From Acrocarpospora phusangensis (GTDB lineage Bacteria; Actinomycetota; Actinomycetes; Streptosporangiales; Streptosporangiaceae): a stretch of DNA of 38,050 bases. The position numbers and the translations under genes are program-made. The notes beneath the pieces are model-generated. The model was not told the origin of the DNA. It made no database searches and saw only the letters and a list, made by a program, of their open reading frames with translations. Positions within the stretch are counted from its first letter, which is position 1; every line of letters starts with the position of its first letter. Location: NCBI RefSeq assembly GCF_016862995.1, contig NZ_BOOA01000078.1, positions 1 to 38,050 on the forward strand. Reading direction: 5' to 3'. Positions 7,124 through 35,167 of the stretch are shown here, one piece after another.

Positions 7124-10075
7124 CTACGGACCCGCCGTAGCCGCGGTCACCGGTGACGGGGACGCGGACGGTGAGGCCGTGGGTGACGGGGACGGTGACG
7201 CCGAACTCGACGCTGAACCGCTCTGGAGGGCGGCCAGCTCCGCCAGCGCCGCCTTCAGAGCCGTCTGCGCGGCTCCGTAGGCCGCCCAGTCGGGCGGGTT
7301 GGCGCTCAGCGCCTTCTGGGCGTCGTCGTAGGCCTTCTGGGCCTTGTCGACGGTCTGCGCCAGGGTGGCGGTCTCCGGCGTGGTCGTCTCCGGCTGGTTG
7401 GGCGTCTCCGCCTCCGGCTGGTTGGTGGTCGGCGCCGTGGTCCCGCCGAAGACCTGTTTCAGGGCCTCGTCGAGGTTGTTGCCGAAGCCCACCTTCTCGC
7501 CGTACAGCACGAGGACCTTCTGGAGGGTCGGGAAGCGGCCCGAGGTCTCCTCCTTCGGCTGGACGTAGACCGGCTCCACGTAGAGCAGGCCGCCGCCGAA
7601 GGGGAGGGTGAGCAGGTTGCCGTACAGGACCTCGGTGGCGCCGCCGGTGCCGCGCAGCAGGTTGAGCTGCTGCGAGACCGTCGTGTTGGACAGGAAGGTG
7701 TTCTGCGCCTGCGGTGGGCCCTGGATGGCCGTGTTGCTGGGCAGCTGGAGGATCTGCAGCTTCGCGTCGGCGCCCGCGGTCGCGTCCACGGCCATGAAGG
7801 CGGCCATGTTCTGGCGGCCGTTGGGCACGAACGTGGTGGTCAGCGAGAACCGTTCGGTGCTGCCCGGCATCTTCATGGTCACGTAGTACGGCGGCTGCTT
7901 GCTCTTCTTGGTGGCCGGGTCCTCGGGGACCTTCCAGAAGTCCTGGCCGCTGAAGAAGGCGTTGGCGTTGGTGACGTGGTACTGCGTGAGGATCTCGCGC
8001 TGGGCCTTGAACAGGTCGGCCGGGTAGCGCAGGTGGTTGCGCAGCTCCGCGGAGATGGCCGAGGTCGGCTTGATGATCCCGCCGAACGCCTTCTGCCAGG
8101 TCTTCAGGACCGGGTCGTTCGGGTCCCACTCGTAGAGGGTCACCGTGCCGTCGTAGGCGTCGACGGTGGCCTTCACCGAGTTGCGCATGTAGTTGACGAT
8201 GTCCCGCGGCACCTGCGGCACGGCCAGGCGCGAGGTGGACACGTCCGTGGTCAGCTCTTCGAGGCTCTTGGGCTCGGAGTACGGGTACGCGTCCGACGTC
8301 GTGTACGCGTCCACGATCCACACGATCCGCCCCCCGACCACCGCCGGGTACGGGTCCCGGTCCAGCGTCAGGAACGGCGCCACCTGCTGGATGCGCTCGA
8401 TCGGCTTGCGGATGTACATGATCCGCGAGTTCTCGTTGATGTTCGAGTTGAGCAGCAGGTTGGTCTCGCCGTACTTCAGCGCGTAGAGGAAGCGGGTGAA
8501 GACGCCGCCGATGGAGACGCCGCCGCGGCCGGTGTAGGTGTTGTTCTTCTGGCCGCTGGAACCCTGCTCGGGGTAGTCCAGCTCGACCGGGCTGGTGCCC
8601 GCCGGACCGCCGACGATGGAGTACTCGGGCGAGGACTCGCCGAAGTACACCCGCGGCTCGTACTTGCCCAGGGTGCCGGTCGGCGGAATGTCCTTCTCGC
8701 TGAAGTTGGGCACGCCGCTGGCGTCCACCGCGTTGCCCGGCGCGGCGACGACGCCGAAGCCGTGGGTGTAGACGAGGTGGTCGTTGATCCAGTTGCGCTG
8801 CTCGTTGGGCGGCAGGCCCATCTCCCGGACCGCCACGACGGTGTCGCGCAGCTTGCCGTCCGAGGACGGGTACCGGTCGATGTCGAGCTGCTCGGGGAAC
8901 TGGTAGTAGCCCCTGATCTGCTGCTTCTGCTGGTAGGTGGGCGAGAGCAGGCTCGGGTCCAGCAGCCGCATGCCGGGGATGGCCGCCGACTCGCTCTGCA
9001 GCACGGCCTCGGACGCGTCGGTCTTCGCGCTGTACTGCGTCACGACGGCGGTATCCACCCCGTACGCCTTGCGTGTCGCGTCGATGTTGCGCGCGATGTA
9101 CTCCTGCTCCTTGGCCTGCTGGTTGGGCTTGACCTGGAACTGCTCGACCAGCGCCGGGTAGACGCCGCCGATCAGCACCGCGGAGAGCACGAGCAGGCCC
9201 AGCGCCACGCCGGGCAGCATGCCGCCCGGCCGGACCACGCCGGCGAAGAAGAGCGCGGCGCAGATCAGCGAGATGATCGCCAGGATGCCCTTGGCCGGCA
9301 GCACCGCGTTGATGTCGGTGAAGGACGCGCCGAAGACCTTCCCCCGGTCGGAGAAGACCAGACCATACCGATCCAGCCAGTACGCCCCCGCCTTGAGCAG
9401 CACGAAGACGCCGAGCAGCACCGACAGATGGGACCGGGCCGCACGGGAGGCCTGCACGCCGCCGGGGGTCTGGATGCGGAACCCGCCGTACAGGTAGTGG
9501 ACCAGCGCCGCCGCGATGATCGACAGGATGATGGCGGTGAACAGGAAGTTCAGCACCATCCGCAGGAACGGGAAGGTGAACATGAAGAACGACAGGTCCC
9601 AGCCGAACTGGGCGTCGGTCTGCCCGAACGGAGTGGCGTTCTGGAACAGCAGCCAGGTGCGCCACTGGCCGGCCGTGGAGGACCCGGCGAACAGGCCGAG
9701 GATGGCCATGCCGATCAGGAAGACCAGTTTGCGGTGCGGGTCGACGGCCAAACGGTAGCGGTCGGCGCCCTGCGCGTTGCCGAACATGCCGGGCCCGAAC
9801 ATGGGCCGCATGCGGTGGGCCAGGGCCATGTTGCCGCCCACGATGCCGACCATCAGCACAGCGCCCGCCAGGAACAGCAGGATCTGGGTGAGCAGCATGG
9901 TGGAGAACACGGCGGTGAAGTCGACCGAGTCGAACCACAGGTAGTCCGTGTAGATCCCGGCGAAGATGAACAGTGCCACCACGAGCACCACCAGGGTGAT
10001 CGCGACGGGAATGAGCAGTCGCGGCCGGCGGGGCAAGCGCATCGCCCGACCGGCTCCGGGGCTCCGGAAGCTCAA
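7124..10075 (-). CDS. UPF0182 (COG1615) membrane protein
   Basis: This is a 983-aa integral membrane protein of the conserved actinobacterial UPF0182 family (M. tuberculosis Rv3193c), function unknown. Seven hydrophobic segments lie within the first ~305 residues. A large extracytoplasmic domain follows, with typical segments such as LDPSLLSPTYQQKQQIRGYY and YTGRGGVSIGG. The C-terminus is a predicted coiled segment (QTVDKAQKAYDDAQKAL) ending in a Ser/Pro/Ala tail. A TTG start at 10075 is preferred because AAGGGG precedes it by six bases and the -10 lies just upstream. The first ATG, at 10042, would shorten it by 11 residues. A terminator follows, so it is a single-gene unit. Confidence 0.9.
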   Translation of the reverse strand: MSFRSPGAGRAMRLPRRPRLLIPVAITLVVLVVALFIFAGIYTDYLWFDSVDFTAVFSTMLLTQILLFLAGAVLMVGIVGGNMALAHRMRPMFGPGMFGNAQGADRYRLAVDPHRKLVFLIGMAILGLFAGSSTAGQWRTWLLFQNATPFGQTDAQFGWDLSFFMFTFPFLRMVLNFLFTAIILSIIAAALVHYLYGGFRIQTPGGVQASRAARSHLSVLLGVFVLLKAGAYWLDRYGLVFSDRGKVFGASFTDINAVLPAKGILAIISLICAALFFAGVVRPGGMLPGVALGLLVLSAVLIGGVYPALVEQFQVKPNQQAKEQEYIARNIDATRKAYGVDTAVVTQYSAKTDASEAVLQSESAAIPGMRLLDPSLLSPTYQQKQQIRGYYQFPEQLDIDRYPSSDGKLRDTVVAVREMGLPPNEQRNWINDHLVYTHGFGVVAAPGNAVDASGVPNFSEKDIPPTGTLGKYEPRVYFGESSPEYSIVGGPAGTSPVELDYPEQGSSGQKNNTYTGRGGVSIGGVFTRFLYALKYGETNLLLNSNINENSRIMYIRKPIERIQQVAPFLTLDRDPYPAVVGGRIVWIVDAYTTSDAYPYSEPKSLEELTTDVSTSRLAVPQVPRDIVNYMRNSVKATVDAYDGTVTLYEWDPNDPVLKTWQKAFGGIIKPTSAISAELRNHLRYPADLFKAQREILTQYHVTNANAFFSGQDFWKVPEDPATKKSKQPPYYVTMKMPGSTERFSLTTTFVPNGRQNMAAFMAVDATAGADAKLQILQLPSNTAIQGPPQAQNTFLSNTTVSQQLNLLRGTGGATEVLYGNLLTLPFGGGLLYVEPVYVQPKEETSGRFPTLQKVLVLYGEKVGFGNNLDEALKQVFGGTTAPTTNQPEAETPNQPETTTPETATLAQTVDKAQKAYDDAQKALSANPPDWAAYGAAQTALKAALAELAALQSGSASSSASPSPSPTASPSASPSPVTAATAGP

Positions 10076-25511: not shown

Positions 25512-26423
25512 TCACCAGTCGCCGATCAGTGCGTCGCCGTACCAGGTCTCGATCAGCCGCCGGGCGATCGAGACCGGGGGCGGCAGGCGCAGGGCGCCGC
25601 TCTCCAGGGCGGCCAGGAGTTCGGTGCGGCTGAACCAGCGGGCCTCGGCGATCTCTTCCGGATCGCGGGTGAGTTCGGTGGTGGCGGCGCGGGCGAAGAA
25701 GCCGAGCATGAGGCTGCGCGGGAACGGCCAGGGCTGGCTGCCGAGGTAGCGCGGGGCCTTGACGGTGACGCCGACCTCTTCGAGGACTTCGCGGATGACG
25801 GCCTGTTCGAGCGATTCGCCCGGCTCCACGAATCCGGCGAGCACCGACATGCGGCCTTCCGGCCACTGCGGGCCGCGGGCCAGCAGGATGCGGTCGTCAT
25901 CGTCGTGGACCGCCATGATCACGGCGGGGTCCACCCGGGGGAAGTGCTGGCTGCCGTCCTGCGGGCAGGTCCGCACGTGCCCGCCCGCGGTCACCTCGGT
26001 ACGGCTCCCGCACTGCGGGCAGAACTGGTGGCTGCCGTGCCAGGCCTCCAGCGCCACCGCGTAGACGAGCAGGCCGGCGTCCCGGTCCCCCAGCAGTGCC
26101 CCGGCCTGCCGCAGCCCGGCCACCTTCGTGCCGTCGGTCTCCGGCAGCTCGGTCCGTACGGCGAAATAGGCGATGTTCCCGGCGTCCACCCCGAGCAGAT
26201 AGCGCTGCCCGTCCGGCGCCTCGGCGGGGGTGAACAGCACCAGTTCGGCGCTCCCCTCGTCCTGCCTGAGCAGGGTGTCCCCGTTGTGCACGAGGGCCAC
26301 TCGGGTCCGGTCGTCGGCCCAGGCACGTTCCAGCCAGGCGGCGTCCTGGCGCAGCACCGCGGACCTGTCGATCGTGCTGCGCGCCAGGAGTAGCGGCCCG
26401 AGTAGGCCCTCAGAGATCTCCAC
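25512..26423 (-). CDS. nudC: NAD(H) pyrophosphatase NudC
   Basis: This 303-aa Nudix enzyme cleaves NADH to NMNH and AMP and can remove NAD caps from RNA. A zinc-ribbon segment (FCPQCGS...TCPQDGSQHFPRVDP, ~147-180) precedes the Nudix box GFVEPGESLEQAVIREVLEEVGV (~208-230). The family signature SQPWPFPRS follows (~241-249). The ribbon has CPQC and CPQD, so the fourth usual cysteine is Asp. The GTG start has GGAAGGA eight bases upstream. It is divergent from the siderophore operon and convergent with mrx1. Confidence 0.93.
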   Translation of the reverse strand: MEISEGLLGPLLLARSTIDRSAVLRQDAAWLERAWADDRTRVALVHNGDTLLRQDEGSAELVLFTPAEAPDGQRYLLGVDAGNIAYFAVRTELPETDGTKVAGLRQAGALLGDRDAGLLVYAVALEAWHGSHQFCPQCGSRTEVTAGGHVRTCPQDGSQHFPRVDPAVIMAVHDDDDRILLARGPQWPEGRMSVLAGFVEPGESLEQAVIREVLEEVGVTVKAPRYLGSQPWPFPRSLMLGFFARAATTELTRDPEEIAEARWFSRTELLAALESGALRLPPPVSIARRLIETWYGDALIGDW

Positions 26424-26531: not shown

Positions 26532-26550
26532 TTAGGTAAGCCTTACTTCG
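26532..26550 (+). promoter_or_regulatory. Iron box (DmdR/IdeR-type operator)
   Basis: TTAGGTAAGCCTTACTTCG matches the 19-bp consensus TTAGGTTAGGCTAACCTAA at 13 positions by hand count. It lies 10 bp before the TTG start of the ATP-grasp gene, over the expected start of transcription. Fe(II)-DmdR1/IdeR binding there would shut the operon off in iron-replete cells. No clear -35/-10 pair could be assigned. Confidence 0.8.
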
Positions 26551-26560
26551 GGGGACTTCG

Positions 26561-27736
26561 TTGCGGCTGTACCTCGCCACCCTCAATCCCACCGATTCGG
26601 TTGTTTCTGGGTTCCTGCCTGCGGCGGACTCACTCGGATGGGAGGTCACCGTCCTGACCGACCGGCCCGAGCGTTATCCGGGGCGGGAGACGATCGGGAC
26701 GGACGTGCGGGACACCCGGGCGGTGATCGACACCATCGCCCGGCACCACCCGCCGGACGTGGTCTTCAGCAACTCCGACCATATCCAGGCGGAAATCGCC
26801 CTGGCCGCATCCTATTTCGGCCTGCCAGGTAAGGACTGGCGGGCGTGCCTGACCGCCAAGAACAAGTCGCTGACCCGCCGGACGCTCGCCCTGGCAGGAG
26901 TCGAGTCCGTCCGCTCGGTACGGCTCCCGCCCGGCGACCCGCCCCCCACCGACTGGCACGGCCCGGTGGTGATCAAGCCCAGGGAGGGCGTGGCCAGCGA
27001 GGACGTGCTCCTGGCCAGGAACGCCAGGGAACTGTGGACCACCGTGACGGCGGTCAAGGCGCGGCGTCCCGGCGAGACCCTGGTCGCGGAGGAGTACCTG
27101 GAGGGGCCGCTGCTGACCCTGGAGACGATCGGGGACGGGCGGGAGATCCGGGTTCTGGGCGGCTTCCGCACGACTCTGGGGCCGCTGCCGCACTTCGTGG
27201 AGGAACGCCTGGACTGGGCCGGGCCGGACGTGCCCGGCCGGGACCACGTGCTGGCCGCGCTGAAGGCGGTCGGGGCCGGCTTCGGCGCCTGCCACACCGA
27301 GTACGTGCTGACCCCGGACGGCCCCCGGATCATCGAGATCAACTACCGGGTCATCGGCGACAACTGCGACTTCCTCCTGGCCGACCTGCTGGGCGTCCCG
27401 CTGTTCCAGTGGATCCTCCGCCTGCACGCCGGCGAACCAATAGCCGACATATACGAAATATCGGAAATATCGGAGGGGCTGCGCGGGCACGGCGCGGCCG
27501 TCAGTCTGCTCGCCGAGCGGACGGGGACGGTCACCGCGGCGCCGCCCGCGCAGGAACTGGCGATGGGTGCGGCACAGGTCTGGCACAACCCCGTCCGGGC
27601 GTTGGGCGACTACGTGCGGCTCACCCACACCAACCGCGACTACCTGGGCCTGCTCCGGGTGATCGCGCCCGATCCGGCGGCCGTCGACGACGCCGTACGC
27701 CGGTTCTGTGAGGAGCAACCATGGGTGATCTCGTGA
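26561..27736 (+). CDS. ATP-grasp ligase of the siderophore operon (PvsA-like)
   Basis: This 391-aa cytoplasmic protein has ATP-grasp features: VVIKPREGVASEDVLLAR (~135-152), LVAEEYLEGPLLTLE (~173-187) and metal-binding EINYRVIGDN (~260-269). It would join an amino or carboxylic acid by an acyl-phosphate, as PvsA does in vibrioferrin synthesis with L-alanine. The TTG at 26561 is preceded by GGGGGA and lies directly behind the iron box. Near codon 300 it has four ATA isoleucine codons and a tandem GAAATATCG repeat (27455-27472). Its last 16 bp overlap the first NIS synthetase. Confidence 0.85.
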   Translation: MRLYLATLNPTDSVVSGFLPAADSLGWEVTVLTDRPERYPGRETIGTDVRDTRAVIDTIARHHPPDVVFSNSDHIQAEIALAASYFGLPGKDWRACLTAKNKSLTRRTLALAGVESVRSVRLPPGDPPPTDWHGPVVIKPREGVASEDVLLARNARELWTTVTAVKARRPGETLVAEEYLEGPLLTLETIGDGREIRVLGGFRTTLGPLPHFVEERLDWAGPDVPGRDHVLAALKAVGAGFGACHTEYVLTPDGPRIIEINYRVIGDNCDFLLADLLGVPLFQWILRLHAGEPIADIYEISEISEGLRGHGAAVSLLAERTGTVTAAPPAQELAMGAAQVWHNPVRALGDYVRLTHTNRDYLGLLRVIAPDPAAVDDAVRRFCEEQPWVIS

Positions 27737-29313
27737 TCTCGCTGCGCCGCCGGTCCCGGGCCCGGCGGGTGGTGCGGGCGGTCCCGGAGCGGGAGGCGTA
27801 CCTGGCGGGGCGGGTGCTGAACGCGCTGCTGCGGGAGGACTACGGCGGGCTGGCGGCGCGGGTCACCCGGGACAAGGCGGGGGTGGCGCTGGCGCTGGCC
27901 TCCGGGCGCAAGGTGCGCCTCACTTCGGGCGGTTTCGCCGGGCTCTTCCAGGACTTCGTGGTGACGCCCGGGGAGGATCTGGGGCTCGACGAGGTGCTGG
28001 AGACGCTGGCCGAGGTGGCCGAGCCCGCCGACGCGACGGGCGTGGCCGCGTTCGCCGAGGAGTGCCGGGAGACGCTGCTCGCCCTCGACCTGTACGACCG
28101 CCGGCAGCGACCCCTCGAGATCGATCGCACCACGATCGGCTACGAGGCGCTGGCGGCCTGCGTGGACCACCCGATCTATCCGACCGCCCGGTGCCGGTCG
28201 GGCCTGGATTCGGAGGAGTTGCTGGCGTACGCGCCGGAGTTCTCGCCGGAGTTCGAGCTGCGCTGGGCGGCCGTGCCCAGGGACGACGTCGTCGCGCGCG
28301 GGTTCGGGGAGTTCTGGCCGTCCTTCGCCGACGTCGGCCTGCCGGAGCTGGGCACGCATGTGCTGTTCCCGGTGCATCCGCTGACGGTGGCCAGCCTGCC
28401 GGGCGTGATCGTGGGGCCCCGGCCGTACCTGCGGGTGCGGCCGACGCTGTCGATGCGGACGGTGGAGGTGGACGCGCGTACGCACCTGAAGCTGCCGCTG
28501 GCGACCAGCACGCTGGGCGCCCGCAACCGCAGGTCGATCCGGCCCGGCACGCTGCGGGACGGCGCCGAGGCCGAGCGGCTGCTGCGGGGGGTGCTCGACC
28601 GGGAGCCCGGCCTGCGGGTGCTGCTGGCCGGCGAGCAGACCTACGGGCACGCGGGCGAGGAGTACCTGGCCTGGATGATCCGCCGCCTACCGGCCGGGGA
28701 GATCGTCTCGGTGGCCGCCCTGGCCGCGCCCGGCGTGTTACCCGACCTCGCCGCCCGCCACTACGGCGGCGACCTGGCCGCCCTTCTGCGCGACTACCTG
28801 ACCTGCCTGTTCACCTGGAACGTCACCCTGTTCGTTCGGTACGGCATCGCCCTCGAAGCCCACCAGCAGAACCTCGCCCTGGTCTTCGGCGACGGCCCGA
28901 TGCGCCTGCTGGTCAAGGACAACGACGGCCTGCTGGCGGCGCGGGACCGGCTGGCCGCCACCGGCCTGGACGTTCCGGCCTTCGGGGACCAGCGCATGCT
29001 GACCGACGACCCGCACGCGCTCGCCGACGTGTTCGTCACGATCACCCTGCACCTGGCCGCCGCCGCCATAACGGTCGGCGCGCTCGGCACGGCGGACCTG
29101 GTGCGCGCCACCCTTGCCGAAGCCCTGGACGCGTTCGGCGACGACCCCACGGCCCGCCTGCTGCGGGCCAGGACCCTGGACGCCGCCAGGCTGGTCGGCA
29201 AATCCATGGTCACGGCGGGCACCCTCGTGGACAAGAGCCGCACCGGCGCCCGGGACATCAACAAGTTCTACGGAACCAGTGGCCCCAACTACCTCACGCT
29301 TAGGAGCGGCTGA
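27721..29313 (+). CDS. NIS siderophore synthetase, IucA/IucC family (PvsB/D-like), first copy
   Basis: This 530-aa ATP-dependent synthetase adenylates a carboxylate such as citrate and condenses it with an amine or alcohol. Family landmarks are DHPIYPTARCRSG (~147-159), HVLFPVHPLTVASLP (~216-230), TLSMRTVEVDARTHLKLPLATSTLGARNRR (~242-271) and ALEAHQQNLALVFGDG (~378-393). The ATG has GAGGAG five bases upstream. Codon 340 is TTA (28738-28740), so bldA-dependent translation is possible. It overlaps the ATP-grasp gene by 16 bp and is followed after 3 bp by the second synthetase. Confidence 0.9.
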   Translation: MGDLVISLRRRSRARRVVRAVPEREAYLAGRVLNALLREDYGGLAARVTRDKAGVALALASGRKVRLTSGGFAGLFQDFVVTPGEDLGLDEVLETLAEVAEPADATGVAAFAEECRETLLALDLYDRRQRPLEIDRTTIGYEALAACVDHPIYPTARCRSGLDSEELLAYAPEFSPEFELRWAAVPRDDVVARGFGEFWPSFADVGLPELGTHVLFPVHPLTVASLPGVIVGPRPYLRVRPTLSMRTVEVDARTHLKLPLATSTLGARNRRSIRPGTLRDGAEAERLLRGVLDREPGLRVLLAGEQTYGHAGEEYLAWMIRRLPAGEIVSVAALAAPGVLPDLAARHYGGDLAALLRDYLTCLFTWNVTLFVRYGIALEAHQQNLALVFGDGPMRLLVKDNDGLLAARDRLAATGLDVPAFGDQRMLTDDPHALADVFVTITLHLAAAAITVGALGTADLVRATLAEALDAFGDDPTARLLRARTLDAARLVGKSMVTAGTLVDKSRTGARDINKFYGTSGPNYLTLRSG

Positions 29314-29316
29314 TCC

Positions 29317-30882
29317 ATGGACCGCCTGGTCATCGACGCCCCCGCGACGCCGCAGGAAGACGATCCCGCGGCGGACGTCGCGGAGCGGGCCACCGTCGCC
29401 GCGCTGCTGAGGTGCTGCGTGCGGGAGGTGGCGGGACCGCGCGGACATGTCTGGCCGTCGGACGAGCACCTGCTGCTGGAGCTGGGCGGCAGCTGGGTGC
29501 GGGCCAGGTCGGGCGGCGGGATCGCGCTGCGGCTGGGCCCGGCCGAGCGGCTGCGCGACGGCGTCTGGGAGCCGCTGACGTCGGCGGCGCTGGTCGAGCT
29601 GGTCACGGCCGAACTGGGCGGGGACAATCCGGAGTTCGCCGCGCAGGTGGCCTCCAGCAGGTCGGTGCTGGAGGCTCTGGCGTCGGCCCGGGAGCAGGCC
29701 GCGCCCTCGCCGGACCCGTGGCTCGCCTCCGAGCAGTCGCTGCTGCTCGGGCACGCCTTCCACCCCACGCCGAAGGCGCGGACGGCCGCCAGGGGCGACT
29801 GGCTGAGCTACGCGCCGGAGGCGTACGCGCGGTTTCCGCTGCGGCTGCTGGGGGTCCGGCGCGACGTGCTGGTCGAGGAGGGCGACGCGAGCGCGCTGGA
29901 CCGGCTGGGCACGGCCCCCGACGGGTACGCGCCGCTGCCCGTGCACCCGTGGCAGTTCGAGCTGCTGGATCCGCCGCTGGACGGACGCCTGATCGACCTC
30001 GGCCACACCGCCGCGCTCGCCACCCCCACCTCCTCGGTCCGTACGGTCTACGAGCCGGACCTGGACAAATGCCTGAAGTTCAGCCTGGACGTGCGCATCA
30101 CCAACTGCGTACGGAAGAACGCCTGGTACGAGCTGGCCGGCTCGGTGGAGCTGTCCCGGCGGCTGGCCCCCGTCTTCGACGACCTGGCGGAGACGTTCCC
30201 GGGCACGCGGTGGCTGCCGGAGCCCGGCTACCGGTCGGCCGACCTCGGCCTGCCGCTGCTGGAAGGGCTCGGGGTGCTGGTGCGGTGCAGCCCGTGGGGG
30301 CGTTCGGGCAGCGGGGTGACGCCGGTGCTGGCGGGGGCGCTGGCCGTACGGGATCTGCGCCGGGCCGATCCGATGGCGTGGTGGGTGGCGTACGTGGAGC
30401 GGGTGGCGCTGCCGGTGCTCGACGCGTACGTCCGGCACGGGGTGGTGCTGGAGCCGCACCTGCAGAACGTGCTGGTGGGGCTGGACGGCGACGGCATGCC
30501 GGTGGAGGCGATCTTCCGGGACCTGGAGGGCACGAAGCTGGTCGGGCACGACCTGTCGGGGCTGGCTCCCGAGGTGGCGGCGGCACTGACGTACGACGCG
30601 GAACGGGGCTGGAACCGGGTCGTCTACTGCCTGTTCGTGAACCACCTGGCCGAGATCGCGGCGACCCTGGAGGGCGCGTGCGCGCTGCGCGAGCTGTGGG
30701 CCGCCGCCGCCGACATCCTCGCCTCCTACGCCGACACCCGCGGCTGGCCGCAGCCCCTGGTCAACCTGCTGGCCGGGATTCCGCTGCCGGCCAAGGCCAA
30801 CCTGACCGTGCGCTGGTCCCGCGCCGCCGACCGGCACGCGACCTACGTGCCGGTCGCGAACCCGCTGGCGAGGCTCGCATGA
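29317..30882 (+). CDS. NIS siderophore synthetase, IucA/IucC family (PvsB/D-like), second copy
   Basis: This 521-aa protein has the classical IucA/IucC landmarks: GHAFHPTPKART (~147-158), LPVHPWQFELLD (~207-218), TSSVRTVYEPDLDKCLKFSLDVRITNCVR (~234-262), VLEPHLQNVLVG (~376-387) and a C-terminal iron-transport-like FhuF segment. Two different synthetases in one operon imply two separate condensations on one citrate-like core. ATG at 29317. The decarboxylase gene starts within its stop codon. Confidence 0.92.
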   Translation: MDRLVIDAPATPQEDDPAADVAERATVAALLRCCVREVAGPRGHVWPSDEHLLLELGGSWVRARSGGGIALRLGPAERLRDGVWEPLTSAALVELVTAELGGDNPEFAAQVASSRSVLEALASAREQAAPSPDPWLASEQSLLLGHAFHPTPKARTAARGDWLSYAPEAYARFPLRLLGVRRDVLVEEGDASALDRLGTAPDGYAPLPVHPWQFELLDPPLDGRLIDLGHTAALATPTSSVRTVYEPDLDKCLKFSLDVRITNCVRKNAWYELAGSVELSRRLAPVFDDLAETFPGTRWLPEPGYRSADLGLPLLEGLGVLVRCSPWGRSGSGVTPVLAGALAVRDLRRADPMAWWVAYVERVALPVLDAYVRHGVVLEPHLQNVLVGLDGDGMPVEAIFRDLEGTKLVGHDLSGLAPEVAAALTYDAERGWNRVVYCLFVNHLAEIAATLEGACALRELWAAAADILASYADTRGWPQPLVNLLAGIPLPAKANLTVRWSRAADRHATYVPVANPLARLA

Positions 30883-31949
30883 CGCTGCTCGGGGTGGCGG
30901 AACGGCTCGGCGACGTCCCGGCCTACGTATACGACCTGGCGGGACTGGACGCCCACGCGGCGGCGATCCGGGACGCGCTCCCGGGAATCGAGATCTACTA
31001 CGCGGTGAAGGCGAATCCGGATCCGCGCCTGCTGCGGGTGATCGCGCCGCATGTGGACGGCTTCGAGGTGTCGTCCGGCGGCGAGTTCGCGCACGTGCGG
31101 TCGCTGCTGCCGGATTCCAGGATCGCCTTCGGCGGGCCGGGCAAGACCGACGCCGACCTGACGCTGACCCCGCACCGCCTGCACGTGGAGAGCCCCAACG
31201 AGCTGCGCCGCCTGCTGACACGCGAGCATCCCGTGGACGTGCTGCTCCGCGCCAACCTGGACGTGCCCGTGGCCGGGGCCGCGCTCGCCATGGGCGGCGG
31301 CGCGACACCGTTCGGCATGGACCCGGCCGGCATCCGGGAATGCCTGGAACTCGTCGGCGGCCCGGTCCGCCTCCGCGGCCTGCACGCCCACCTGGCCAGC
31401 GGCCTGGACGCGCCCGACCTGCTCAAGCTGGCCACGGCCGTGATCGCGTACGCCCGGGAGATCGGCGCCGCCGAGATCAACCTGGGCGGCGGCATGGCCG
31501 TCGACTACCAGGATCCGGACCACCGCTTCGACTGGGCCGCGTACGGCCGGGGCCTGGCCGGAACGCCGGAGACGCTGCGGATCGAACCCGGGCGCGCGAT
31601 GACCGCCTACTGCGGCTGGTACCTCACCAAAGTCCTCGACCTCAAACGCGTACACGGGGAACTCTTCGCGATCCTCACCGGCGGCACCCACCACCTGCGC
31701 ACACCGGTCACCAAGGGACACAACCAGCCGTTCACCGTGTTCGGCTCATCCGGCGCTTCGGAGCCCGTCACCCTGGTGGGCCAGCTGTGCACCCCCAAGG
31801 ACGTCTTCGCCCGGCAGGTCCCGGCCGCGCTGGCGGTGGGCGACGTCGTGGCGTTCGAGATGGCCGGGGCGTACGCGTGGAACATCTCCCACCACGACTT
31901 CCTCATGCACCCGAAACCGGAGTTCCACTACGTCTCGGGAATCTCGTAG
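30879..31949 (+). CDS. PLP-dependent fold-III decarboxylase of the siderophore operon (PvsE/SbnH-like)
   Basis: This 356-aa alanine-racemase-fold decarboxylase has PLP-lysine motif YYAVKANPDP (~45-54), GLHAHLASGLD (~167-177), the glycine loop NLGGGMAVDY (~199-208), IEPGRAMTAY (~232-241) and the C-terminal active-site cysteine in LCTPKDVF. In vibrioferrin and staphyloferrin B pathways this enzyme removes CO2 from a citryl-serine or citryl-diaminopropionate intermediate. The ATG at 30879 overlaps the preceding stop (ATGA). Its 3' end overlaps the 3' end of adnB by 22 bp on the opposite strand. Confidence 0.9.
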   Translation: MTLLGVAERLGDVPAYVYDLAGLDAHAAAIRDALPGIEIYYAVKANPDPRLLRVIAPHVDGFEVSSGGEFAHVRSLLPDSRIAFGGPGKTDADLTLTPHRLHVESPNELRRLLTREHPVDVLLRANLDVPVAGAALAMGGGATPFGMDPAGIRECLELVGGPVRLRGLHAHLASGLDAPDLLKLATAVIAYAREIGAAEINLGGGMAVDYQDPDHRFDWAAYGRGLAGTPETLRIEPGRAMTAYCGWYLTKVLDLKRVHGELFAILTGGTHHLRTPVTKGHNQPFTVFGSSGASEPVTLVGQLCTPKDVFARQVPAALAVGDVVAFEMAGAYAWNISHHDFLMHPKPEFHYVSGIS

Positions 31950-34900
31950 ATCAGGGCGGTGAGGTCCTCGGACTCCATCAGGTCCACCGGGCGCACGGTC
32001 TGGTTGGCCCGGACGTAGTGGAAGGCGGCGCTCACCTTCGCCAGCGGGGTGTTCGAGAGCTGCGCCCACGCCAGCCGGTACGCGGCGAGCTGGATCGCCG
32101 CCGTCCTCGCCGCCCCGCCGCGCGGGCGTTCACCGGTCTTCCAGTCGACCACGACATACCCGTCCCGCTCCCGGAACACGGCGTCCATGCGGCCCCGGAC
32201 CAGCCGGTCGGCGATCACCGTCTCGAACGGGACCTCCAGATCGACCGGGGTGAGGGCGGCCCAGCGGCTCTGCTCGAACTTGGCGCGCAGCTCGGTCAGG
32301 CGCAGGTCGGCCTCGGAGATCGCGTCGGCCGCGCCGGGCAGCTCGAACTCGTCGATCAGGCGCTGCTGGCCCCAGCGGGACTCCAGCCAGCGGTGGAACG
32401 AGGTGCCCCGGCGGGTCAGCGGCGTGGGCTTGCGCGGCAGCGGACGCCGGACCTGCCTGGCGAAACCCGACGGATCCTGGGCGAGCGTCACCAGAGACGA
32501 CACCGACAGCCGGACCGGCAGCTCGACCACCCCGGACTCGCGGCGGCGGTCCCGCTCGCGCAGCAGCAGTTCGGTGTCCCGGGACCAGGAGCGCATGCGC
32601 TCGCGCTCCCACTCCTTCACCTCGCCCTCGCCCTCCTCCGACAGGCCGTCCATGGCCGCCGCCACCATGGCCGCGCCCTCCTTGATCGAGTCCTGGACCA
32701 CGACCTGCGGCCAGACGGCCTCCGGCGGCTCGGCCAGCAGCGGGTTCTCGTCGACCTCCCCCTCGGTCCAGCGGGGTACGGCACTCGCGTACTCCCTGAC
32801 CTCCTCAAGGAACGCGGACGGCTCCAGCGGCTTGGACGAACTGCCCCAGCGGTAACCGGAGGCGATCAGCAGGTAGTGCGCCCGGGTCACGCCCACGTAG
32901 GCCAGCCGCCGCTCCTCGCGCAGGTCGCGTTCCCTGCACTGCTCGTCGAAGTCGGCCAGGGCCTCCTTGTCCAGGCCGGTCAGCTCGGGCAGGTCCGCGC
33001 TGTCGCCGCGCAGCCCGTACGGGAGTTTGCGGGGGTTCTCGGTCCAGCGGGAGTTGGTCACCGGGGTGGCGGGGAAGATGCTGCCCTTGGCCAGGCCGCC
33101 GCGCTGGGTGGTCAGCTGGGACAGGCCGGGCACCACCACGACCGGCCACTCCAGGCCCTTCGCGGCGTGCACGGTCATCAGCTTGACGCTGTTGGTCTCG
33201 CCGACGCGGCCCTGCTCCAGGCCGAACTCCTCGCTCTCCGCCGCCTTGATGTAGGCGAGGAACGCGCCCAGGGTGGGGTCCTCCGCGTCGCCGGCGAAAC
33301 GGGCGGCCGCGTCCTGGAAGGCGTCCAGGTCGGCGCGGGCGGCCAGCGGGCTGCCGCCCCGGCTGGCCACCTCCACGTCCAGGGCGAGCCGGCGTTCCAC
33401 CTCGCCGATCAGGTCGGGCAGCGGCTGCGCGGCGTGCGAGCGCAGCAGGCGCAGCTCCAGGGCCAGCGCGGGCAGGCGCTCCCGGGCACGCTCGGAGAAT
33501 CGGGCCCGCCACTCCTCCTGGTCGGGCAGCTCGTCGAGCGCGTCGATCAGGCTGCCCCGCTCGGCCTCCAGGTCGGCGACGACCTGCTCCAGCGGGTCCT
33601 GGTTCGGCCGGTACGCGGCGTCGCGGTTGAGATCCCTGGCCAGCTCGCCCAGGACCTTCAGGTCGGCCGGGCCGATCCGCCAGCGGGGTCCCGCCAGCAG
33701 CCGGACGAGCGCGTCGCCGGCGCTCGGGTCGTACATGACGCGGAGCGTGGCCACGATGTCGGCGACCTCCGGCACGGTGAGCAGACCGCCCAGGCCCACC
33801 ACCTCCACCGGAATGTCACGCGCTTCCAGCGCTCGCCGGATCGCGGGGAACTGCGAACGTTTGCGCGCCAGAATCGCCACGTCCTGCGGCTGTACGGCAT
33901 ACGGGCCGCCGTACAGGCTGGATTTGGCCTTCGCGCGTTCGCCCTCCCCCCACGGGAGGCCGTCGGGCGCGGTCTCCTGGCCGAGCGTGCCGGCGATGCC
34001 GTCGGCGATCCAGGCGGCCTCGTCCTCGGCGGTCTCGTGGAAGGCGCAGATCACCCGGCCCCGGTCGGCGCGGTTCTCGCCCGGGACCAGGACGGGCACC
34101 TCGGCCGCCTCCCGGCGCAGGTCGGCCTGGACCCGGGCGGCCACGTCCAGGATGCGCTCGCCGTTGCGGAAACTGACCGAGAGCTGCCGGACGGGGGCCG
34201 ACTCGCCCCGCGTGGTACGGAAATCCTCGGGGAAACGGGTCAGATTGCCGGCGGAGGCGCCACGCCAGCCGTAGATGGACTGGCAGGGGTCGCCGACCGC
34301 CGTAACCGGGTGGCCGCCGCCGAACAGGGCGCGCAGCAGCACCAGCTGGGCGTGGCTGGTGTCCTGGTACTCGTCCAGGAGCACGATCGTGAACCGCTCC
34401 CGCTCCAGCTGCCCCACTTCGGGATGGTTCGCCGCGATCCGCGCGGCCAGCGCCATCTGGTCGCCGTAGTCGATGACCTCCCGGTTCCGCTTCACCCGCT
34501 GGTACGCCTGGACCAGCGGAAGCAGCTGCTCCCGGATGACCTGCACCTTCACGGGCTTCTGCTGCGGGAGGGTGATCCGGCCGGGGAGGGCGGCCAGGCG
34601 TTCCTTCAGCCAGTCGCCGGTGGCGTACACGTCGTCGACGCCGCGCAGGTGCTCGGAGAGCTCCCCGGCCAGTTCGAGCACGGCGGCCGTCACGCTGGCC
34701 GGGCCCAGGTCGATGTGGTCCATCGGGCCGTCGTACTGGCCGACCACGCGGGAGGCCAGCTGCCAGGCCACTGCGGGTGTGACCAGGCGCATCGTGGGTT
34801 CCATCGCCTCGCGCAGGGCGTGGTCGGTGACCAGGCGGGCCGCGTACGCGTGATAGGTCGAGACCGTGGGCTCGCTCTCCAGGTCGGCGATCAGGCCCGC

Positions 34901-35167
34901 CGAGACCAGGCCGGTCAGGCGTTTGCGCACCCGTTCCGCCAGTTCGCCCGCCGCCTTGCGGGTGAAGGTGAGGCCCAGGATCTGCTCCGGCCTGGCGTAC
35001 CCGTTGGCGACCAGCCAGACCACGCGGCCGGCCATGGTCTCGCTCTTGCCGGAGCCCGCGCCGGCGATGACCACCATCGGCTCCCGGTCGGCCTCGATCA
35101 CCGTGGCCTGCTCGGGGGTCGGCGGCAGCACGCCGAGCTTGGCGGCCAGCTCGTCGGGGGTCAGCAC
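31928..35167 (-). CDS. adnB: AdnB-like helicase-nuclease subunit
   Basis: This 1079-aa SF1 helicase fused to a nuclease corresponds to the AdnB subunit (M. tuberculosis Rv3201c) that resects double-strand breaks. It has Walker A AGAGSGKSET (~35-44), LTFTRKAAGELAERV, VLLDEYQDTSHAQ, GDPCQSIYGWRGA, SFRNGERIL, HAAKGLEWPVVVVPG and YVGVTRAHYLL. The C-terminal PD-(D/E)XK nuclease has RMDAVFRERDGYVVVDWKTGE (~990-1010). The GTG start overlaps the stop of the adnA-like gene by 7 bp (GTGCTGA), fitting a heterodimer made from one transcript. Confidence 0.9.
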   Translation of the reverse strand: MLTPDELAAKLGVLPPTPEQATVIEADREPMVVIAGAGSGKSETMAGRVVWLVANGYARPEQILGLTFTRKAAGELAERVRKRLTGLVSAGLIADLESEPTVSTYHAYAARLVTDHALREAMEPTMRLVTPAVAWQLASRVVGQYDGPMDHIDLGPASVTAAVLELAGELSEHLRGVDDVYATGDWLKERLAALPGRITLPQQKPVKVQVIREQLLPLVQAYQRVKRNREVIDYGDQMALAARIAANHPEVGQLERERFTIVLLDEYQDTSHAQLVLLRALFGGGHPVTAVGDPCQSIYGWRGASAGNLTRFPEDFRTTRGESAPVRQLSVSFRNGERILDVAARVQADLRREAAEVPVLVPGENRADRGRVICAFHETAEDEAAWIADGIAGTLGQETAPDGLPWGEGERAKAKSSLYGGPYAVQPQDVAILARKRSQFPAIRRALEARDIPVEVVGLGGLLTVPEVADIVATLRVMYDPSAGDALVRLLAGPRWRIGPADLKVLGELARDLNRDAAYRPNQDPLEQVVADLEAERGSLIDALDELPDQEEWRARFSERARERLPALALELRLLRSHAAQPLPDLIGEVERRLALDVEVASRGGSPLAARADLDAFQDAAARFAGDAEDPTLGAFLAYIKAAESEEFGLEQGRVGETNSVKLMTVHAAKGLEWPVVVVPGLSQLTTQRGGLAKGSIFPATPVTNSRWTENPRKLPYGLRGDSADLPELTGLDKEALADFDEQCRERDLREERRLAYVGVTRAHYLLIASGYRWGSSSKPLEPSAFLEEVREYASAVPRWTEGEVDENPLLAEPPEAVWPQVVVQDSIKEGAAMVAAAMDGLSEEGEGEVKEWERERMRSWSRDTELLLRERDRRRESGVVELPVRLSVSSLVTLAQDPSGFARQVRRPLPRKPTPLTRRGTSFHRWLESRWGQQRLIDEFELPGAADAISEADLRLTELRAKFEQSRWAALTPVDLEVPFETVIADRLVRGRMDAVFRERDGYVVVDWKTGERPRGGAARTAAIQLAAYRLAWAQLSNTPLAKVSAAFHYVRANQTVRPVDLMESEDLTALIYEIPET

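Follow-up and report, generated by a model that had tools for sequence, protein, structure and literature searches.

What does a tightly packed run of four siderophore-type genes make in an actinomycete, when its layout follows the vibrioferrin genes of Vibrio but lacks their exporter, and what controls it? The question is raised by positions 26,532 to 31,949 of a 38,050-nucleotide stretch of Acrocarpospora phusangensis DNA (contig NZ_BOOA01000078.1, positions 1 to 38,050), here called the window. The run is very probably an iron-repressed operon of the non-ribosomal peptide synthetase (NRPS)-independent siderophore (NIS) type, predicted to make a vibrioferrin-type carboxylate siderophore, either vibrioferrin itself or a close analogue, with an exporter that is not PvsC and with unlinked uptake genes.

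The operon (26561-31949, + strand) reads PvsA-PvsB-PvsD-PvsE. It begins with a PvsA-like ATP-grasp ligase (P0001; 26561..27736; 391 aa), whose TTG start is preceded by the ribosome-binding site GGGGGA, and continues with a PvsB-like IucA/IucC NIS synthetase (P0002; 27721..29313; 530 aa), a PvsD/AcsD-like IucA/IucC NIS synthetase (P0003; 29317..30882; 521 aa) and a PvsE/AcsE/SbnH-like fold-III decarboxylase dependent on pyridoxal phosphate (PLP) (P0004; 30879..31949; 356 aa). P0001 and P0002 overlap by 16 nt, a gap of 3 nt separates P0002 from P0003, and P0003 and P0004 overlap by 4 nt. A first-pass annotation, made from the sequence alone, had read the same succession of ATP-grasp, two IucA/IucC and PLP decarboxylase genes, overlapping or nearly touching, as the content of pvsA, pvsB, pvsD and pvsE; the coordinates, the measured spacing and the Pfam domains agree with it. 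It had also seen no transporter or receptor, and among the genes listed for the window none was noticed that would code for an exporter, receptor or binding protein; the pvs transport queries covered related loci and genomes and were not run on the window separately.

At the level of domains, P0001 scores above the Pfam cut-off for ATP-grasp_3, P0002 and P0003 each for IucA_IucC and FhuF, and P0004 for Orn_Arg_deC_N and Orn_DAP_Arg_deC. All four proteins stay below the cut-off of every NCBIfam model; the best for P0001, an argininosuccinate-lyase subfamily, falls far below it. Structural matches in the Protein Data Bank (PDB) are limited to two L-amino acid ligases for P0001 and include NIS enzymes for P0002 (best 7cbb, E 1e-9). 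P0003 matches AcsD (2w02, E 5e-59), and P0004 matches 6knh (E 1e-73), a structure of SbnH.

Reference pvs operons came from plasmid records of Vibrio fortis, Cupriavidus H16, Rhodococcus WAY2, R. oxybenzonivorans and Pantoea soli, the first three of which served for a best-match comparison. Each window protein matches its Pvs namesake best, at 34-53% identity overall. In the order Cupriavidus, Rhodococcus WAY2 and Vibrio fortis, identities are 44, 44 and 35% for P0001 with PvsA, 37, 42 and 36% for P0002 with PvsB, 35, 42 and 34% for P0003 with PvsD, and 44, 53 and 42% for P0004 with PvsE. Residues invariant among the references are kept at 73 of 85 positions in P0001 (five PvsA sequences, with which it shares these columns in the alignment), 98 of 112 in P0002, 85 of 88 in P0003 and 78 of 82 in P0004. 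P0003 is also identical at the positions aligned to AcsD S279, R281, T282, K293, R305, H444 and D464, the catalytic active-site residues of that enzyme. P0001 to P0004 are orthologous to PvsA, PvsB, PvsD and PvsE, with their conserved residues mostly intact.

Phylogeny places the enzymes in the same way. A midpoint-rooted NIS synthetase tree of 58 rows, several of the outside ones long, included Sodalis AcsA, AcsC and AcsD, a Pseudonocardia sbn-like set, Pantoea aerobactin synthetases (IucA/C), two rhizobactin-type rows and 14 of 21 longer loci from the host's family. P0002 falls in a PvsB clade (22 rows, support 100/99), to which AcsA and an SbnC-like protein are sister. P0003 belongs to a joint PvsD and AcsD clade (25 rows, 100/99), in which AcsD sits among the PvsD proteins. 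Rhodococcus relatives with a full pvsABCDE set branch beside the window synthetases, and a decarboxylase tree groups P0004 with actinobacterial PvsE (35 rows, 100/100). The first-pass annotation had named clustering with non-siderophore families as the outcome that would speak against a siderophore operon; both synthetases lie with siderophore enzymes, and P0001 matches PvsA best among the references.

The nesting of AcsD within PvsD proteins, together with the closeness of P0003 to AcsD and of P0004 to 6knh, would also suit a pathway of the achromobactin or staphyloferrin B type, in which serine or diaminopropionate and citrate are joined by several NIS synthetases. However, the Sodalis acs locus and the Pseudonocardia sbn-like locus each hold three NIS synthetases, whereas the window operon has only two, and neither of these falls in the clade of AcsC, SbnF-like and IucC proteins. 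The PvsA-type ATP-grasp of the window has no annotated counterpart in the Sodalis or Pseudonocardia clusters, and gene calling, with no sequence search made, brought to notice no SbnA-like or diaminobutyrate transaminase gene beside the operon. We regard such a pathway as highly improbable.

What of control? A palindrome of the DmdR/IdeR type lies at 26532..26550, upstream of the operon and touching the ribosome-binding site. Scored against the 19-bp DmdR/IdeR consensus, it matches at 13/19 positions on the + strand and 14/19 on the - strand. The strict consensus, with up to three mismatches allowed, gives no site in the window; a degenerate version with three mismatches gives this box as the sole site, against 0.01 expected. 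Across the host's own genome, the degenerate pattern occurs at 24 forward and 26 reverse sites, compared with 5 and 10 for the reversed control. Other sites adjoin a bacterioferritin-like gene, an FTR1-like permease, a SufB-like gene and siderophore-transport genes, all named from translations and few of them Pfam-checked.

The box is conserved throughout the relatives scanned. All 30 family loci (window included) have one of 14-17/19 starting at -28 to -40, while 726 control windows reach at most 12/19 and none has 14 or more. All 21 longer loci have the box, and none has a further site of 14/19 or more, overlapping registers apart. Each of the 80 named loci, which are the best 80 out of 575 relatives found and hence the closest kin, has a box of 15-17/19 at -28 to -55, against a maximum of 13/19 in 3588 control windows. 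The 13/19 box that the first-pass annotation had put directly before the first start codon is therefore in place, kept among the relatives and genuine, and its conservation gives strong indirect evidence of iron-dependent expression. The window operon adds to the known pvs-type siderophore operons, and the case for its iron control is stronger than could be seen at first. In one half-site the window's box departs from those of its genus mates (CGAAG versus TGAGG or GAAGG), and repression may be weaker there than in these mates.

The operon is also widespread in the family, the Streptosporangiaceae, in which the nearest named relatives are Acrocarpospora species. Among 341 family genomes, P0001 has matches in 232 at 1e-20 and in 226 at 1e-40, and P0004 in 233 at 1e-50. 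Both are found together in 225 (E<=1e-40 and E<=1e-50, respectively), with P0001 alone in one and P0004 alone in eight, and the operon is retained even in a 4.2-Mb genome (G321). Its flanks consist of a NUDIX-type gene (25512..26423, - strand) and a convergent UvrD/AddA-type helicase gene (31928..35167, - strand) that overlaps the operon end by 22 nt; both are named from translation only and lie outside the pathway. A NUDIX-type homologue stands upstream in 77 of the 80 named loci and a helicase-type homologue downstream in 66. Because these neighbours are kept, the operon is taken as mostly inherited and no recent arrival. In a class-wide sample, P0002 has matches at 1e-40 in 30 of 394 genomes, of which 19 (the host's among them) belong to the same family and 11 to others. 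Nine of these 11 belong to a single genus, probably Streptomyces, since a neighbouring gene in one is 94% identical to its S. chartreusis counterpart.

How would such an operon work? With iron present, a DmdR/IdeR-type repressor would occupy the box; with iron absent, the operon would be transcribed as one message. P0003, of the PvsD/AcsD type, would adenylate one prochiral carboxylate of citrate and esterify it with L-serine, and P0004 would decarboxylate the resulting O-citryl-serine to O-citryl-ethanolamine. P0001 would then join the free amine to an amino acid, which in vibrioferrin is alanine, and P0002, a PvsB that lies next to AcsA/SbnC-type enzymes, would couple 2-oxoglutarate. The product would leave the cell via an exporter other than PvsC and be taken up by an unlinked binding-protein/ABC system. 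The choice of 2-oxoglutarate for P0002 and of alanine for P0001 is a prediction that draws on clade membership. AcsE is described as decarboxylating O-citrylserine in a passage of one paper (PMC7857480), which supports the order PvsD then PvsE.

The same enzyme set might yield something other than vibrioferrin, if the ATP-grasp or the PvsB-like enzyme takes another amino or keto acid. Identity to annotated Pvs enzymes is only 34-53%, 12 of 85 PvsA-invariant and 14 of 112 PvsB-invariant residues are changed, a search of 41 genomes found no PvsC relative, and in the three genomes of the window's genus searched nothing closely matches the pvs-linked binding protein. Set against this are the near-complete invariant residues of P0003 (85 of 88) and P0004 (78 of 82), and the Rhodococcus relatives with the full pvsABCDE set that branch beside the window's proteins. 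The chance of a different product is appreciable, if somewhat short of even.

The missing exporter sets the operon apart from its Vibrio model. PvsC exporter, aldolase, substrate-binding protein (SBP) and FecCD queries found no match in the 80 named loci nor in 21 others, in keeping with the first-pass annotation's statement that pvsC is missing. At 1e-15, a second PvsC query yielded no relative in any of 41 genomes, with no known positive among the genomes searched. Rhodococcus PvsC gave one weak match of 78 residues (E 4e-6) in a 664-codon frame of the host's own genome, which was rejected as an orthologue. Export is presumably encoded elsewhere, as the first-pass annotation proposed. In the 11 relatives from outside the family, PvsC adjoins PvsB in four (between B and D in three, at a contig end in one) and is not there in seven, and three of the four PvsC-bearing loci carry a binding protein and permeases beside the operon. 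Since PvsC is also missing in seven of 11 outside relatives, exporterless pvs operons are common in actinomycetes. Rhodococcus, with its exporter, lies outside in the tree, so the actinobacterial ancestor may already have had the exporter, with loss following, perhaps several times.

The layout itself has precedents. Streptomyces avermitilis belongs to a family other than that of the window's host. Its avsABCD genes (SAV 7320-7323) are called a 'vibrioferrin-like polyhydroxycarboxylate siderophore' cluster in a passage of PMC9394381, where the products of avsA-C are given as siderophore synthetase components and that of avsD as a diaminopimelate decarboxylase. Like the window operon, by the published description, this actinomycete cluster has a gene of the diaminopimelate-decarboxylase type after its three synthetase components, with no exporter named in that passage; a four-gene layout of this kind is thus already in print. 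A vibrioferrin match of 18% is mentioned for another Streptomyces in part of PMC7385001. Titles and abstract openings on vibrioferrin and NIS siderophores in actinobacteria name no isolated product of this kind from Streptosporangiaceae, and the excerpted literature on vibrioferrin in Streptomyces and actinobacteria names no isolated product of the S. avermitilis avs genes.

Other likenesses come from sequence records. Plasmids of Streptomyces chartreusis NBC_00851 and Embleya NBC_00896 carry exporterless pvsA-B-D-E with B and D adjacent, as in the window; both have iron boxes of 14-16/19 upstream of pvsA, and their synthetases are 44-48% identical to those of the window. The same exporterless gene order recurs in seven of the 11 loci outside the family. 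FhuF-like or siderophore-interacting protein (SIP) genes often lie next to exporterless loci of this Streptomyces/Embleya type, whereas none was noticed beside the window operon. The plasmid-borne pvsABCDE of Rhodococcus sp. WAY2 and R. oxybenzonivorans has orthologous A, B, D and E genes and a 16/19 iron box in both but, unlike the window, also has major facilitator superfamily (MFS) exporter, aldolase/citrate-lyase, binding-protein and permease genes. Vibrio pvsABCDE (the V. fortis plasmid copy) has orthologous A, B, D and E genes in the same order; it differs from the window at 34-42% identity and in having an exporter and TonB-dependent receptors. The Vibrio operon is under Fur control, in contrast to the DmdR/IdeR-type box of the window. 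Two Streptomyces loci (L097:8247-12777 and L100:8409-11578) combine a PvsD-like synthetase and a second, divergent NIS synthetase, the latter on its own branch (100/99). PvsA was not found in L097, which also has PvsE, and none is annotated in L100; these pairs are possibly another NIS type.

If uptake is unlinked, where might it be encoded? The first-pass annotation had advised searching the genome for iron-box-linked siderophore-binding proteins, and three were found in the host's own genome, none of which was accepted as the operon's partner. A phylogenetic profile set 40 operon-bearing genomes against 40 in which P0001 has no match. The C5 binding protein was rejected, with matches in 34 of the 80 at 1e-20 (24 with and 10 without the operon) and none in two other members of the genus searched. 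Orthologues of C104 at E<=1e-100 occur in 12/40 genomes with the operon and 1/40 without, an enrichment that kinship could explain, and those of C20 at the same threshold in 8/40 and 4/40; neither was retained. The C104 locus (L105:9108-13993) is an iron-boxed operon that codes for a siderophore-type binding protein together with two ABC half-transporters of the exporter type, and it is a candidate for a role in siderophore traffic. Another stretch of the genome, C60 (L106:4031-19001), has three iron boxes and an NRPS-like frame of more than 2300 codons, which has an AMP-binding domain close to the start and is adjoined by a FecCD-like permease (read from translation). Here the genome probably has a second siderophore locus.

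A further query came from outside the family. The pvs-linked binding protein of locus L195, whose genome is probably of the Streptomycetaceae, finds a counterpart in 23 of 41 genomes (E<=1e-25), with an identity of at least 49% in 18. None of the three window-genus genomes searched has a close match, and the nearest full-length relative in the window's genome is C5, at 29-31%. Ten of the 18 close-match genomes were read. In each, the SBP, FecCD and FecE genes form a set unlinked to the operon, and an iron box lies between its arms (L203-L212); their binding proteins are 47-73% like those of the Rhodococcus and L195 pvs loci. Two of four Nonomuraea that lack the operon have the set as well, which shows it to be independent of the operon. 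In a divergent family member (G340), the uptake set (L209:5294-9227) is 73-83% identical to that of L195 and looks like a horizontal transfer.

The decarboxylase varies in position. Among 77 named loci with at least 7 kb past the ATP-grasp start, it lies on the same strand in 59, is inverted in three and is not at the locus in 15. In four longer family loci without it (L063, L069, L078, L081), the gene is elsewhere in the same genome, and in the decarboxylase tree the unlinked, inverted and second copies nest among linked ones. The idea that unlinked copies are placed with transport genes failed on 12 loci. Second PvsE-like copies in L085, L087, L088, L089 and L093 (genomes G300, G303, G170, G042 and G214) each directly follow a gene of one shared cluster, a GntR-UTRA gene by Pfam in the two members scanned. 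The surroundings of these five copies showed neither a called pvs gene nor an iron box; the copies form one clade (92/88), and their neighbourhoods, which vary, may be mobile. Their residence in an actinomycete integrative element was not confirmed, as ten frames comprised two GntR-UTRA genes, one insertion sequence (IS) transposase and seven without a match.

Several observations weigh against an iron-repressed vibrioferrin-type operon. No clear exporter was found in the host's own genome or in related ones, and none of its three iron-boxed binding proteins is general to operon-bearing genomes, the best, C104, being missing from 28/40. The boxes of the window and of G321 (14/19 each) are the weakest among the family loci scanned, the decarboxylase is away from the operon in 15 of 77 named loci, and no iron box was found at unlinked or second decarboxylase copies (0/12 loci). 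For P0004 the best NCBIfam models, below cut-off in both cases, are those of an exosortase-associated decarboxylase and of LysA, and the 14 PvsB-invariant positions at which P0002 deviates include K274R and H367N. Substrates are not readable from sequence, and the product is a prediction only. Passages of two reviews give another division of labour, with PvsE acting on free serine and PvsA as the ester former (PMC5577590, PMC6836290), and the first of these calls the Pvs enzyme functions untested.

Some of these points, namely the lack of a PvsC relative in 41 genomes, the weak window box and the 15 of 77 loci without a local decarboxylase, could also suggest a cryptic or decaying operon, its exporter gone and its box weakening, from which no siderophore is secreted. 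Yet all four frames are open, P0003 retains the AcsD active-site residues, every one of the 80 named loci still has its iron box, and the operon persists in the 4.2-Mb genome of G321. Decay is unlikely, and an iron-repressed operon for a vibrioferrin-type siderophore is the preferred reading.

A wider account of the family can be offered only tentatively. The Streptosporangiaceae might have fixed a stripped vibrioferrin-type pathway at one chromosomal spot, with the exporter replaced by an unrelated one, and with uptake genes and, in some genera, the decarboxylase scattered. The product would then perhaps be a new siderophore of citrate, an amino acid and 2-oxoglutarate peculiar to the family.

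If the preferred reading is true, the operon would present a clean case of a biosynthetic operon that has lost its exporter yet kept its regulation. Many Streptosporangiaceae, including Nonomuraea, Streptosporangium, Microbispora, Acrocarpospora and others, several of which are known antibiotic producers, would share a core iron-repressed carboxylate siderophore.

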